Of a DNA stretch of 64,000 nt, positions 12,582-62,414 are shown piece after piece (the stretch's first letter is position 1; every line of letters begins with the position of its first letter). Origin of the DNA: Taibaiella koreensis. Lineage in GTDB: Bacteria > Bacteroidota > Bacteroidia > Chitinophagales > Chitinophagaceae. The notes under the pieces are model-generated. The model was given only the letters and a program-made list of their open reading frames with translations. It ran no database searches and was not told the origin of the DNA. The stretch spans positions 248,001 to 312,000 of the forward strand of contig NZ_QVNU01000003.1 in the NCBI RefSeq assembly GCF_003545715.1, written 5' to 3'. The position numbers were made by a program, and so were the translations under genes.

Positions 12582-14498
12582 TTAATGCAGATGCTTCAGG
12601 TTGATCACTTCCTGCTTGGTCAGGAAGCGCCATTTGCCACGGAGTACATTTTTCTTGGTCAGCCCCGCGTACATCACGCGATCCAGCTTCTCTACCTCGT
12701 AGCCCAGTGACTCAAAAATGCGGCGCACAATACGGTTCTTACCGCTGTGGATCTCGAGTCCGATCTCATTCTTACTATCGAGATACTCCAGCTGATCGAC
12801 CTCGGCCTGGCCGTCTTCCAGCATAAGGCCTTCCTTGATCTTGTCGAAATCGGCCTTGGTCAGGTTCTTGTCGAGCGTAGCCTTGTATACCTTTTTGATG
12901 CCATATTTGGGATGGGCCAGCTTCTGGGTCAGCTCGCCATCGTTGGTCAGCAGCAGGAGCCCGGTGGTATTCCTGTCGAGTCTTCCTACGGGGAACACCC
13001 GTTCCTCAATCAGGTTTTCCACCATTTCCATTACAGTACGGCGCCCCTTGGGATCATCGGTGGTGGTAATGAATCCTTTGGGCTTATTCATCAGGATATA
13101 GATCAGGTTCTTCTGGATAACGAGCTTATTGCCGTTCAGCAATACGGTATCTGCAGTCGTTACCTTAAAGCCCGGCTCGGTGATCAGCGTATCATTCACC
13201 ATCACCTTACCTTCCTTGATCAGCGCAACGGCATCGCGGCGACTGCATATATCGCAGTGGGCGATGAATTTATTCAGCGGCATCGGCTGGTCGTCGCCGG
13301 CTTGTGCAGGTTGCTCTATTGCGGCTTCCCTGCTGTCTGGCCGGGCGTTGTATGCCCTTTCGTGTGGATTTTCGTTATCAAACTGTTTTTTGAAGCGGCT
13401 TTGGGCATCATGGCGATTCCTGCGGGGGGGCTCCTCGCCATCGTCCGTTTTTTTCCTGCCCGGCTTCACGTCGCTTTTACCAAAGCTGCGCTCCTGCGGC
13501 TCATTGTCCCATTTATTATCGAGCTCTTTGGAAAAGGTTACTTCTTCCTCCTGTTCCTTCCGTTCCCGCTGCAGCTTTTGTTTGTGCTGTCGGGCGGCGA
13601 GCTCCTCATCGTCCAGTTTGCCAAAGGCATTGGCATAACGATTGGGGCGTTTGGGCTCTTCCTCGTCTCTGTGAGCTTGTTTTTTGTCTGGCCTATCCGT
13701 TTTCTTGAAGGGGCGATCTTCTTTGCCAGGGCCTTTGGAAAAAGATCTCTCGCCATCCTGTTTAAAAGGCTTTTTGAACGGGCGCTCGTCCTTATCACCG
13801 AATGACTTTTTGAAAGGACGCTCTTCCTTATCACCGAATGATTTCTTGAAAGGACGCTCTTCCTTATCACCGAATGATTTCTTGAAAGGACGTTCTTCTT
13901 TATTGCCGAATGACTTTTTGAAAGGACGCTCTTCCTTATCACCGAATGATTTCTTGAAAGGACGTTCTTCTTTATTGCCGAATGACTTTTTGAAAGGACG
14001 CTCTTCCTTATCGCCAAAGGCTTTCTTGAACGGGCGCTCTTCTTTATTGCCAAAAGATTTTTTGAAAGGACGCTCATTCTTATCACCGAATGATTTCTTG
14101 AACGGGCGTTCTTCTTTATTACCGAATGGCTTTTTGAAGGGACGCTCATCCTTATCGCCAAATGACTTCTTGAAAGGACGCTCTTCTTTGTCGTCGAATG
14201 ACTTCTTGAAGGGACGCTCATCCTTATCGCCAAATGACTTTTTGAAAGGGCGTTCGTCTTTATCGCCAAATGACTTTTTGAAAGGGCGTTCGTCTTTATC
14301 GCCGAAAGATTTCTTAAACGGGCGCTCTTCTTTATCGCCGAATGACTTCTTGAAAGGGCGTTCTCCCTTATCACCGAAAGTCTTTTTGAACGGGCGCTCT
14401 TCCTTATTATCGAAAGATTTGCGGAAAGGCCTTTCTTCTTTGGAACCGGAAGATTCACGGTCGGAACGGCTATCGGAATGAAATGGCTTTTTATGCAT
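12582..14498 (-). CDS. RsuA/RluB-family pseudouridine synthase with long repeat extension
   Basis: 638 residues, more than twice the usual 240-290. The catalytic part is C-terminal: an S4 RNA-binding domain (MPLNKFIAHCDICSRRDA, about residue 405 on), then the RsuA/RluB/E/F core with FPVGRLDRNTTGLLLLTNDG, where the Asp of GRLDRNT is the catalytic residue. This group isomerises specific uridines in rRNA. The N-terminal part is basic and disordered, with about 19 copies of a 12-residue unit (KEERPFKKSFGD type, residues 21-248), then Lys/Arg/Glu-rich linker. Such tails occur on this protein across Chitinophagales, but the copy number here is large. The exact target uridine (RluB type or other) is undetermined. 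Confidence 0.92.
   Translation of the reverse strand: MHKKPFHSDSRSDRESSGSKEERPFRKSFDNKEERPFKKTFGDKGERPFKKSFGDKEERPFKKSFGDKDERPFKKSFGDKDERPFKKSFGDKDERPFKKSFDDKEERPFKKSFGDKDERPFKKPFGNKEERPFKKSFGDKNERPFKKSFGNKEERPFKKAFGDKEERPFKKSFGNKEERPFKKSFGDKEERPFKKSFGNKEERPFKKSFGDKEERPFKKSFGDKEERPFKKSFGDKDERPFKKPFKQDGERSFSKGPGKEDRPFKKTDRPDKKQAHRDEEEPKRPNRYANAFGKLDDEELAARQHKQKLQRERKEQEEEVTFSKELDNKWDNEPQERSFGKSDVKPGRKKTDDGEEPPRRNRHDAQSRFKKQFDNENPHERAYNARPDSREAAIEQPAQAGDDQPMPLNKFIAHCDICSRRDAVALIKEGKVMVNDTLITEPGFKVTTADTVLLNGNKLVIQKNLIYILMNKPKGFITTTDDPKGRRTVMEMVENLIEERVFPVGRLDRNTTGLLLLTNDGELTQKLAHPKYGIKKVYKATLDKNLTKADFDKIKEGLMLEDGQAEVDQLEYLDSKNEIGLEIHSGKNRIVRRIFESLGYEVEKLDRVMYAGLTKKNVLRGKWRFLTKQEVINLKHLH
13755..14438 (-). 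repeat. In-frame 36-bp tandem repeat, about 19 copies
   Basis: Each 36-bp unit encodes 12 residues of the type K-E/D-E-R-P-F-K-K-S-F-G-D/N. Units differ by synonymous and a few replacement changes (for example KSF to KPF, KTF or KAF). Two alternating subtypes (GD and GN endings) appear in pairs, which suggests duplication of two-unit blocks. The period is exact throughout, so the reading frame is never broken. Confidence 0.95.
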
Positions 14499-29287: not shown

Positions 29288-30352
29288 ATGGAGCAACTAT
29301 TTCACAATGCAATATCGCTATTGCAACAGCTGATCCGCATCCCTTCCTTCAGCAGGGAAGAGGAGGGTACGGCGGCGTGCCTGCAACAATGGCTGGAAAC
29401 AAAAGGCATTGCCGTAGAGCGGACCGGCAACAATATTATCGCCCGGAGCAAAAGCTTTGATCCCTGTAAGCCAACGCTGCTGCTCAACTCACATCATGAT
29501 ACGGTGAAACCCGCTGCCGGATATAGCTTCGATCCTTTTAACCCTCACCTTGCCGATGGCCGGCTGTACGGATTGGGTAGCAACGATGCCGGCGCCGCAT
29601 TGGTTTGTTTGTTGCAGGCTTTCGTTTACCTGCACAATACGGAGCCTGGTTGCAACCTTATCCTTGCTGCTACAGCGGAGGAAGAGATATCGGGCAAGGG
29701 GGGTATCGCATCGGTACTGCCGCTCCTGGGCGATATCGCCTGCGCCATTGTAGGAGAACCGACCCTGTTACAAATGGCCGTTGCGGAGCGGGGATTGATG
29801 GTGGTCGATGCTGAGGCTTGTGGTATTGCGGGTCATGCTGCGCGAAGGGAAGGTGAAAATGCGATTGACAAGGCGTTGCAGGATATCGCATGGCTACAGG
29901 GGTATCGCTTTGAAAGAGATTCGGAATGGCTGGGGCCGGTTACGGCTCAGGTAACCGTGATCGAAACACCCAATAAACAGCATAATATGGTACCTGATCG
30001 TTGTCGGTTCACGATCGATATACGGCTTAATGAACAGTATACGCATGAAGAAGTGCTGCAAACGTTGCAGGACGGTATGCAGGCAACATTGCTGCCGCGC
30101 AGTATGCGGTTGCGCAGCTCAATCATCGATGCCGCTCATCCGCTGGTCTGTGCCGGCCGGCAGCTGGGATTAACGGCTTATGGTTCGCCTACATTATCCG
30201 ACAAGGCGCTAATGCCCTTTCCGGCATTGAAGTTGGGACCCGGCGATTCGGCCCGCAGCCATACAGCAGATGAATATGTTTACCTGGAGGAAATACGGAA
30301 TGGCATTGTTACTTATGTCGATTTGATCCGTGGCTATGGGGCAATGGTTTAA
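29288..30352 (+). CDS. argE: M20-family deacylase, ArgE-like (N-acylcitrulline/ornithine)
   Basis: 354 residues from the ATG at 29288. Zinc-ligand motifs are LLLNSHHDTVKP (His and catalytic Asp), GSNDAGAAL, and ATAEEEISGKGG with the general-base Glu. The family removes acyl groups from amino acids. Because the carbamoyltransferase acts on acylornithine, the substrate here is probably N-acylcitrulline, as in Bacteroides. It begins 5 bp after argB and is the last gene before the heptamer arrays. Confidence 0.9.
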   Translation: MEQLFHNAISLLQQLIRIPSFSREEEGTAACLQQWLETKGIAVERTGNNIIARSKSFDPCKPTLLLNSHHDTVKPAAGYSFDPFNPHLADGRLYGLGSNDAGAALVCLLQAFVYLHNTEPGCNLILAATAEEEISGKGGIASVLPLLGDIACAIVGEPTLLQMAVAERGLMVVDAEACGIAGHAARREGENAIDKALQDIAWLQGYRFERDSEWLGPVTAQVTVIETPNKQHNMVPDRCRFTIDIRLNEQYTHEEVLQTLQDGMQATLLPRSMRLRSSIIDAAHPLVCAGRQLGLTAYGSPTLSDKALMPFPALKLGPGDSARSHTADEYVYLEEIRNGIVTYVDLIRGYGAMV

Positions 30353-30357
30353 ATTCC

Positions 30358-30441
30358 AGGTATCAGGTATCAGGTATCAGGTATCAAGTATCAAGTATCA
30401 AGTATCAAGTATCAAGTATCAAGTATCAAGTATCAAGTATC
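30358..30441. repeat. Heptanucleotide array 1 (A-A/G-GTATC), 12 copies
   Basis: Four copies of AGGTATC followed by eight of AAGTATC, exactly head to tail, starting 5 bp after the argE stop. A partial copy follows. The reverse complement nearly matches the unit of array 2, so both arrays could pair as a long imperfect hairpin. Confidence 0.97.
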
Positions 30442-30451
30442 AAGTACTCCC

Positions 30452-30553
30452 TACCTAATACCTAATACCTAATACCTAATACCTAATACCTAATACCTAA
30501 TACCTAATACCTAATACCTAATACCTAATACCTAATACCTAATACCTAATACC
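30452..30553. repeat. Heptanucleotide array 2 (TACCTAA), 14 copies
   Basis: Fourteen identical TACCTAA units and a final TACC. The lack of any variation indicates recent slippage. It lies 10 bp after array 1. Confidence 0.97.
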
Positions 30554-30562
30554 ACCCACAAT

Positions 30563-30604
30563 ATCTAACGTCTAACGTCTAACATCTAACGTCTAACATC
30601 TAAT
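30563..30604. repeat. Heptanucleotide array 3 (A/G-TCTAAC), 6 copies
   Basis: Six units, ATCTAAC or GTCTAAC, the last being ATCTAAT. The final base is directly followed by the argH ATG. The array therefore forms the whole translation-initiation region, and no purine-rich ribosome-binding site is present. Confidence 0.95.
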
Positions 30605-31924
30605 ATGAAACTCTGGCAAAAAGACCATACCGATACGGCAAAGCTGGTAGAGCAATTTACCATAGGAAAAGACCGCGATTTTGATCTGCTGCTGGCCGCT
30701 GCAGACATACAAGGTTCGCTGGCGCATACGGCAATGCTTTGTCATGTGGGTCTGCTGACCAGGGAGGAAACGGAGCTTATCCATAAAGGATTACAGGATA
30801 TAAACGCCCAGATCGCCGCAGGCTTATTCCGCATTGAAGACGATGTGGAAGATGTACATTCACAGATCGAGCTGCAGCTTACCCGGGATATCGGCGAGGC
30901 CGGGAAAAAAATACACAGCGGGCGTAGCCGAAACGACCAGGTGGCCGTTGCCATCAAGCTATACCTGAAAGAAGAGATCAGGGATATTGCCAAGCTGACC
31001 TCAGTTTTGTTCAGCCAGTTGCAACAATTGAGCGGACAATATCGCCATTGCCTTATGCCGGGTTATACACATCTGCAGGTAGCCATGCCTTCTTCATTCG
31101 GACTCTGGTTCGGCGCCTATGCAGAGAGTCTGGTAGATGATCTGGAGCTGCTTGCTGCTGCCTATAAGGTGACCGATAAGAACCCCTTGGGCAGCGGGGC
31201 CGGCTATGGCTCTTCCTTCCCGCTTAACAGGCGTCTCAGTACGGAACTGTTGCAAATGGGTGGTCTGCATTATAATGTGGTATATGCGCAAATGAGCCGG
31301 GGAAAGACCGAACGCTTTGTGGCTACAGGTATTGCTGCGTTGGGTGCAACGTTGGCAAGGCTTTCAATGGATGTTTGTTTATTCATGAACCAGAACTTTG
31401 GTTTTCTCAGCTTCCCGGAAGCATTGACCACCGGAAGCAGCATTATGCCGCATAAAAAGAATCCCGACATATTTGAGTTGGTAAGAGGAAAAGGAAACAG
31501 GCTGCAATCAGTGCCTAATGAGCTGACATTGCTGACCACCAATCTGCCGTCGGGCTATCACAGGGAGCTGCAATTGACCAAGGAGATCCTGTTCCCGGCA
31601 TTGGAGATGCTTAAGGACTGTTTCCGCATCCTCAGCTTCGCCCTGCCGCAGGTAAAGATAAAGGAGGATATTCTGAGCGATAATGCTTACCGATATTTAT
31701 TTACAGTAGAAGCCGTCAACGACCTGGTGAACCAGGGCCTGCCTTTCCGGGAGGCTTATCGGGCCGTAGGCGCCAGCGTGGAGGAGGGTAATTTTGACTA
31801 CCAGGGATTCGATCCGTCGCGGCATACGCACGAAGGATCGATGGGCAATCTGTGCAATGAGGAGATCAGGGTTGCGATGGAAAAAGTACTGCGCCAGTTT
31901 AGTCTTGAACTGCCGGAAGCGTAG
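30605..31924 (+). CDS. argH: Argininosuccinate lyase
   Basis: 439 residues, normal length. It splits argininosuccinate to arginine and fumarate. The fumarase/aspartase signature GSSIMPHKKNPD lies near residue 281, and SGRSRNDQVA and PGYTHLQVAMP are further active-site blocks. It completes the operon but is separated from argE by 252 bp of heptamer arrays, so its expression may depend on their length. Its 3' end overlaps the convergent crp-like gene by 26 bp. Confidence 0.97.
   Translation: MKLWQKDHTDTAKLVEQFTIGKDRDFDLLLAAADIQGSLAHTAMLCHVGLLTREETELIHKGLQDINAQIAAGLFRIEDDVEDVHSQIELQLTRDIGEAGKKIHSGRSRNDQVAVAIKLYLKEEIRDIAKLTSVLFSQLQQLSGQYRHCLMPGYTHLQVAMPSSFGLWFGAYAESLVDDLELLAAAYKVTDKNPLGSGAGYGSSFPLNRRLSTELLQMGGLHYNVVYAQMSRGKTERFVATGIAALGATLARLSMDVCLFMNQNFGFLSFPEALTTGSSIMPHKKNPDIFELVRGKGNRLQSVPNELTLLTTNLPSGYHRELQLTKEILFPALEMLKDCFRILSFALPQVKIKEDILSDNAYRYLFTVEAVNDLVNQGLPFREAYRAVGASVEEGNFDYQGFDPSRHTHEGSMGNLCNEEIRVAMEKVLRQFSLELPEA

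Positions 31925-62339: not shown

Positions 62340-62414
<75 letters not shown>

Follow-up and report, generated by a model that had tools for sequence, protein, structure and literature searches.

Three heptanucleotide arrays in the argE–argH gap of Taibaiella koreensis probably belong to a dispersed, polarised intergenic element

Rehm et al. (2015) described arrays of the heptamers GGGAATC and GGGGA(C/T)T in Xanthomonas and Nostoc and studied them as quadruplex formers (PMC4692102). The portions of that report available to us state that (i) 89–93% of the Xanthomonas GGGAATC arrays are intergenic; (ii) the Xanthomonas arrays lie mainly between co-directional genes, are rare in divergent gaps, and include many inverted pairs; (iii) in two Xanthomonas genomes, 83% of the arrays occupy the same gene context, with lengths that differ; (iv) the G-rich strand is the sense strand within 50 bp after stop codons and the antisense strand within 50 bp before ORFs; and (v) units of the Xanthomonas type contain G3–G4 tracts, and their oligonucleotides form quadruplexes (PMC4692102).

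A second system, the TAACTGA direct repeats, was reported by MacGregor (2015) from Beggiatoaceae, Cyanobacteria, and a few Bacteroidetes, and translational control was suggested for it (PMC4679880). In the sections of that paper accessible here, the TAACTGA repeats are intergenic, contain in-frame stops, and in many cases end by a start codon; those of BOGUAY consist of 2–6 copies of one unit, and 147 of 170 sets point to starts (Table 1 of PMC4679880). The same sections mention long arrays among other heptamer repeats in Gramella and Aequorivita and mixed heptamer assemblages in Elizabethkingia (PMC4679880). Heptanucleotide arrays are also over-represented among the long simple sequence repeats of bacteria, for which polymerase slippage was reportedly proposed to favour 7 nt (Mrazek et al. 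2007, as cited in later work). Across the portions of the literature examined, bacterial heptamer arrays are reported as over-represented microsatellites, and their function is not proven. The STRR repeats of heterocystous cyanobacteria are heptanucleotide arrays as well. To our knowledge, neither a polarity rule nor a multi-block element is known for the STRR repeats or for the long simple sequence repeats of the 2007 study.

The window analysed here is a 64,000-nt stretch of the Taibaiella koreensis genome (assembly GCF_003545715.1, contig NZ_QVNU01000003.1, positions 248,001–312,000). NCBIfam profiles identify a gene row of argG, argC, argD, a carbamoyltransferase, argB, argE, and argH, in which argC, argB, and argH match above the cut-offs and the other assignments are best matches below cut-off. 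From argG to argE, the gene models leave gaps of at most 37 bp, and the 252-bp gap between argE and argH is filled by three heptamer arrays, the last of which abuts the argH start codon (Table 1). Tandem Repeats Finder and the sequence itself confirmed this arrangement, which had been reported in a preliminary description of the locus. The argE stop codon ends at position 30352, and the last TCTAAT ends at 30604, directly before the ATG of argH (30605–30607); Tandem Repeats Finder delimits array 3 at 30564–30603 (5.7 copies, 90% matches). Translation of array 1 yields no stop in any of the three forward frames, every forward frame of array 2 is stopped once per 21 nt, and array 3 has a stop codon in each forward frame.

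Table 1. Features of the argE–argH region, in coordinates of the window.
Feature	Position	Strand	Basis
argE-like gene (ArgE/DapE-family deacylase), 5' of the arrays	29288–30352	+	Gene model; NCBIfam TIGR01910, E 2.4e-41, below cut-off
Array 1 (block R), 12.4 copies of GTATCAA/GTATCAG	30360–30446	+	Tandem Repeats Finder, period 7, 98% matches
Array 2 (block F), 14.6 perfect copies of TACCTAA (rotation CTAATAC), no G	30452–30553	+	Tandem Repeats Finder, 100%
Array 3 (block C), about 6 copies of TCTAACG/TCTAACA, last base adjoining the argH ATG	30564–30604	+	Sequence
G-free stretch, 125 nt, 40 C	30445–30569	+	Scan of both strands, 846-kb contig
Predicted RNA hairpin, array 1 with array 2; 4- or 6-bp stems between small internal loops	30358–30553	+	RNA fold
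argH, argininosuccinate lyase	30605–31924	+	TIGR00838, 325 bits (cut-off 279.5)

The claim that arrays 1 and 2 are nearly reverse complements stands in part, since their units, compared by eye, pair at 5–6 of 7 positions. The long hairpin proposed for them is indeed predicted for the RNA of positions 30340–30640 (−54.9 kcal/mol, z −4.06), and none of 100 shuffles folded as well. No intrinsic terminator was found on the plus strand of the gap. At three other loci (L178, L184, and L188), G+C-rich hairpin-like inverted repeats stand separately beside the arrays in the locus sequence, so the arrays need not be terminators. A promoter in the gap was rejected: five sigma-70-like matches on the minus strand recur in step with the 7-bp units of array 1, and none scores above 9 of 12. 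Rfam gave no structured-RNA match at the arrays, and its only match above the gathering score in the window is a tRNA (62341–62414). Elsewhere in the window, a 36-bp/72-bp tandem array (13770–14408, minus strand, 8.9 copies of 72) lies within ORF 12582–14498; it encodes repeats like FGDKEERPFKKS within the N-terminal extension of a 638-aa protein of which the C-terminal part looks like a pseudouridine synthase.

A period of exactly 7 sets the arrays apart from other tandem repeats. On C17, the 846-kb contig that holds the window, period 7 is the only one of the periods 2–13 for which arrays reach a lag identity of 70% or more (8 regions). A single order-2 Markov resample of C17 contained no array at any tested period. 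At a score of at least 16, the contig holds 12 period-7 arrays, all of them intergenic, and one array (period 9) over periods 4–6 and 8–13. In 985 kb around argH from 80 Bacteroidota loci, Taibaiella helva included, period 7 occurs in 16 regions (one of which, in L036, is an N run), and the other periods from 2 to 19 occur in 1 to 5 regions each, with the exception of the double period 14 (10 regions). A general period-7 signal was not clear in array-free intergenic DNA, where lag-7 z values of 2.2, 0.6, 2.6, and 0.6 compare with a spread of 1.4 to 2.4 at other lags. The array-free intergenic DNA of genome G003 (C4:100001–380000, L202–L215) has an excess of lag-21 identity (z 6.8 vs other lags).

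The heptamer feature is not specific to argH or to the arginine operon. A genome search for other 7-bp arrays found tandem blocks at no fewer than 31 intergenic junctions (26 further loci and five on contig C17); a sixth C17 site, near 846 kb, carries related, more mixed heptamers. Three blocks can be defined by their consensus, namely R (GTAYYAR), F (YTRRTAC, the reverse complement of R), and C (TCTAAYR), and arrays 1 and 2 are accordingly a single motif in two orientations. Over the whole genome, YTRRTACx3 has 201 matches and TCTAAYx3 has 51, and the reversed-pattern controls have 0. Where a junction has several blocks, they run R–F–C or in the mirrored sequence, and reverse-type units precede forward-type units in all 13 clusters that have both (9 in this genome, 4 in T. 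helva). None of the 102 arrays in the genus sequences examined lies in a gene. Of the 36 clusters that bear a C block, 31 have its outer end no more than 30 bp from a gene boundary, at 16 starts and 15 stops, on which ground a start-codon device was rejected for the family as a whole. Where both neighbouring genes are known, 32 of 46 clusters lie in co-directional, 10 in convergent, and 4 in divergent gaps, against base rates on C17 of 71%, 13%, and 17%.

In the wider family, YTRRTACx3 matches 11 of 147 genomes including this one (10 of 146 others); its reversed control also matches 11 of 147, so the few matches outside this genome are not specific. TCTAAYx3 occurs in 4 of the 147 genomes, three of them within the genus, and its reversed control in none. 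The conserved F–C core CTTACAATYGCTTACATCT, allowing 1 mismatch, was rejected as a family marker, with just 5 matches in 2 of 147 genomes. Our literature search, mainly of papers outside subscription, turned up no report of Chitinophagaceae elements built of R–F–C heptamers.

Two contigs of the assembly (C1 and C21; loci L001 and L200) both start within YTRRTAC-type arrays, in opposite orientations, as if the assembly had been split there by one long array. At positions 1671–1894 of locus L196 (contig C19, about 99.3–99.5 kb), degenerate heptamers form a tandem duplication of ~140 bp. A degenerate 62-nt stretch that is related to the arrays has 30 matches at about 15 genomic places, five of them within 0.7 kb at L196.

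The nearest named relative by argH is T. helva F-4 of the same genus group (82% identity), and its argE–argH gap retains shorter, decayed R, F, and C blocks in the same order. By eye, these comprise about 5, 3, and 5 units, compared with 12, 14, and 6 here, so that array length does differ between relatives. The 7-nt period is still visible in the decayed gap, with an identity of 0.50 at lag 7 vs 0.20–0.38 at lags not divisible by 7. On C17, three arrays (246, 278, and 555 kb) have T. helva counterparts that also bear arrays; conversely, three array junctions of T. helva contig C11 (276, 307, and 529 kb) have an array in this genome. Of 15 further T. helva loci, chosen for having arrays, nine sit at junctions with an array in this genome, and the other six matched no array locus in the compared set of this genome, which is not evidence of absence.

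Shared junctions can differ in content: at L196/L222, T. helva has a near-perfect (GTATTGG)n array and this genome a GTATTAG/TTGATAC mixture. In a comparison of one genome per species, the T. helva counterpart of locus L190 is a counter-example without an array, and genome G001 has a short argE–argH gap without arrays and no array at the 246-kb junction either; whole elements are thus also gained or lost. A different heptamer family, TTTTGAC/TTTTGAT, is found at C17 positions 371802, 373070, 376493, and 601880. Its TTTTGAC arrays at 371 and 373 kb lie directly 5' of start codons; the three near 371–376 kb are missing from T. helva, and the one at 601 kb is common to both species.

The arrays follow a strand rule. 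The sense strand is G-rich in 34 of 40 arrays within 50 bp of a stop and C-rich in 24 of 28 within 50 bp of a start (Fisher p 8e-9), in a sample in which this genome and T. helva share loci and the cases are not fully independent. Unselected contigs alone gave 7 of 10 G-rich near stops and 8 of 9 C-rich near starts (p 0.02). Array pieces without a G3/C3 tract on the G-rich strand obey the same rule (28 of 31 near stops, 19 of 23 near starts; p 8e-8), and of 109 skewed array pieces from the genus, only 5 have four or more such tracts. G3 tracts are absent from arrays 1–3, and array 2 has no G at all; the (GTATTGG)n repeats at L184 and L222 do contain them.

Neighbouring arrays of opposite bias are ordered as well. 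The G-rich array comes first in 12 of 12 pairs from four other Chitinophagaceae genomes (20 loci selected with YTRRTAC), in 4 of 4 pairs from 79 argH loci not selected for arrays, and in 3 of 3 from one further set. At the loci of this genome, 16 of 21 pairs are G-first, and the five C-first pairs, judged by eye, are neighbours of different unit families. Such polarity was rejected as a general property of inverted repeats, which are G-first and C-first in near-equal numbers on C17 (94 and 92) and C11 (74 and 73); those of genome G003 lean G-first (60 vs 32). A telomere-like, head-to-head templated addition of 3' ends, suggested by the G-first order, was also considered, and nothing supports it. 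Downstream of argH in Chitinophaga solisilvae (L068, 7329–7502), a long inverted repeat has arms made of TACGAAT/ATTCGTA heptamer arrays, the G-richer arm first.

We consider it likely, from sequence comparison, that the argE–argH gap is one locus of a vertically inherited, polarised, dispersed intergenic heptamer element that contains slippage-grown microsatellites. The blocks of this element would hold their order and polarity, R, then F, then C at the gene boundary, and single units would be gained and lost through replication slippage that favours 7-nt units. With slippage of this kind, arrays 1 and 2 may have grown recently from short seeds like those that T. helva has at present. The preliminary description had taken the perfect identity of array 2 as a sign of slippage, and the arrays are of the slippage-made kind. 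Most changes in length would be near neutral, with effects on argH that are at most modest. Neutral slippage alone does not predict the polarity, however, which counts against a purely neutral account. The argH transcript would have an untranslated leader that is largely free of G, and this leader may fold onto array 1.

This leader is the subject of the first alternative. Its G-free run takes in all of array 2 and the first part of array 3 and is the longest on either strand of the 846-kb contig (the next is 60 nt). In T. helva, too, no G-free run in 647 kb is longer than that of the argH leader, which measures 61 nt, has 15 C, and extends to the argH start; the margin over the next (55 nt) is narrow, and the coincidence hints at constraint. 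Under selection, C-containing untranslated RNA without G would offer ribosomes an open stretch to land on, or would load Rho and thereby set the polarity between argE and argH, and pairing with array 1 can mask it. The excess of C-rich sense strands near starts (24:4) agrees with this idea, as do G-free (TCAATAC)n arrays of about 4–5 copies directly before the argH ATG in 4 of 80 argH loci, namely three of Pedobacter (L032, L036, and L039) and one of a Sphingobacteriales MAG (L082); TCAATAC is one base off TTAATAC, and the site is the same place as that of array 3. However, the locus is common to the two species by descent, so theirs are not independent cases; crude ORF calling gives about 15 of 80 relatives a 2-nt gap before argH; and array junctions are not all at starts. 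The last 10 nt before the starts of C17 have a mild general bias (G 0.16 vs C 0.23), and no paper on Rho with G-poor RNA in Bacteroides came up in a literature search. We judge a selected G-free leader to be unlikely.

The preliminary description had suggested a copy-number switch, in which slippage in arrays 1–3 alters argH expression from cell to cell in the manner of phase variation. Perfect array 2, the predicted hairpin, and an array that reaches the argH ATG fit such a switch. So does the lack of TTTG, the consensus of the Bacteroidota −7 promoter element, on the plus strand of the gap, which leaves no obvious element of this type, so argH probably relies on readthrough. Nevertheless, the gap is untranslated, and 7-nt changes would therefore cause no frame shift; T. 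helva argH sits behind a short, decayed version of the arrays, for which no significant fold was predicted (z −0.98; 36 of 200 shuffles folded as well). Because C blocks adjoin stops as often as starts, copy-number control of argH is not favoured, and we hold a switch to be quite improbable.

A third alternative, drawn by analogy with the proposal for the TAACTGA heptamers of Beggiatoaceae, is that the units are protein-bound sites of translational control. Both systems share the unit length of 7, blocks F and C carry stops in every forward frame, and forward units reach the start codon, as they do in the part of PMC4679880 available to us. The near-even division of C blocks between starts and stops differs from the strong start preference of the BOGUAY sets in that source, and the change of the long unit between species at L196/L222 is hard on a sequence-specific binder; protein binding of this kind thus seems very doubtful. 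A transposase-spread mobile palindromic element (REP/RAYT, MITE, or similar) is extremely unlikely: the blocks are dispersed and intergenic with inverted arms, and the degenerate 62-nt relative recurs, but many junctions are common to both species, and the only match in the genome to Y1_Tnp (PF01797), the family covered by our transposase search, has no period-7 array in its 3345-bp locus, on which ground a REP/RAYT identity was rejected.

The vertically inherited, polarised heptamer element invites comparison with the systems described above. As far as the available portions of the Rehm et al. report go, the Xanthomonas-type and Taibaiella arrays share (i) an exact 7-nt unit that is over-represented against other unit lengths; (ii) intergenic positions, mostly in co-directional and seldom in divergent gaps, inverted pairs, and shared junctions, with exceptions, at which lengths differ; and (iii) a G-rich strand that is sense after stops and antisense before starts. 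They differ in that the Taibaiella strand rule holds without G3 tracts, arrays 1–3 lack G-tracts of the quadruplex type, the phylum is different, and a single locus combines several unit families in the order R–F–C. Taibaiella arrays without G3 tracts thus obey the location and strand rules reported for quadruplex-forming heptamers of Xanthomonas. This agreement speaks against quadruplex formation as a general cause and directs attention to strand composition, to slippage, or to effects that arise in the RNA where genes meet.

A broader proposal, to which we give little credence, is that bacteria of distant phyla independently keep the same heptamer punctuation of gene borders, with G-rich RNA after stops and C-rich, nearly G-free RNA before starts. 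It would act at the RNA level (for example, in Rho loading or by insulating adjacent transcripts from each other); what counts would be the composition of the strand and the 7-nt spacing, not a fixed motif or G-quadruplex, and slippage would set its strength at each locus. If this were true, the argE–argH gap would illustrate it strongly; the gap, where T. helva has decayed seeds and this genome expanded arrays, is also a compact place for a test. With the TAACTGA repeats, as the accessible sections of PMC4679880 present them, the Taibaiella arrays have in common that they are intergenic heptamers with in-frame stops, some of which end at a start codon. They are set apart by their units (GTATCAA, TACCTAA, and TCTAACR), by three families with an inverted R–F pair, and by the absence of a preference for starts over stops.
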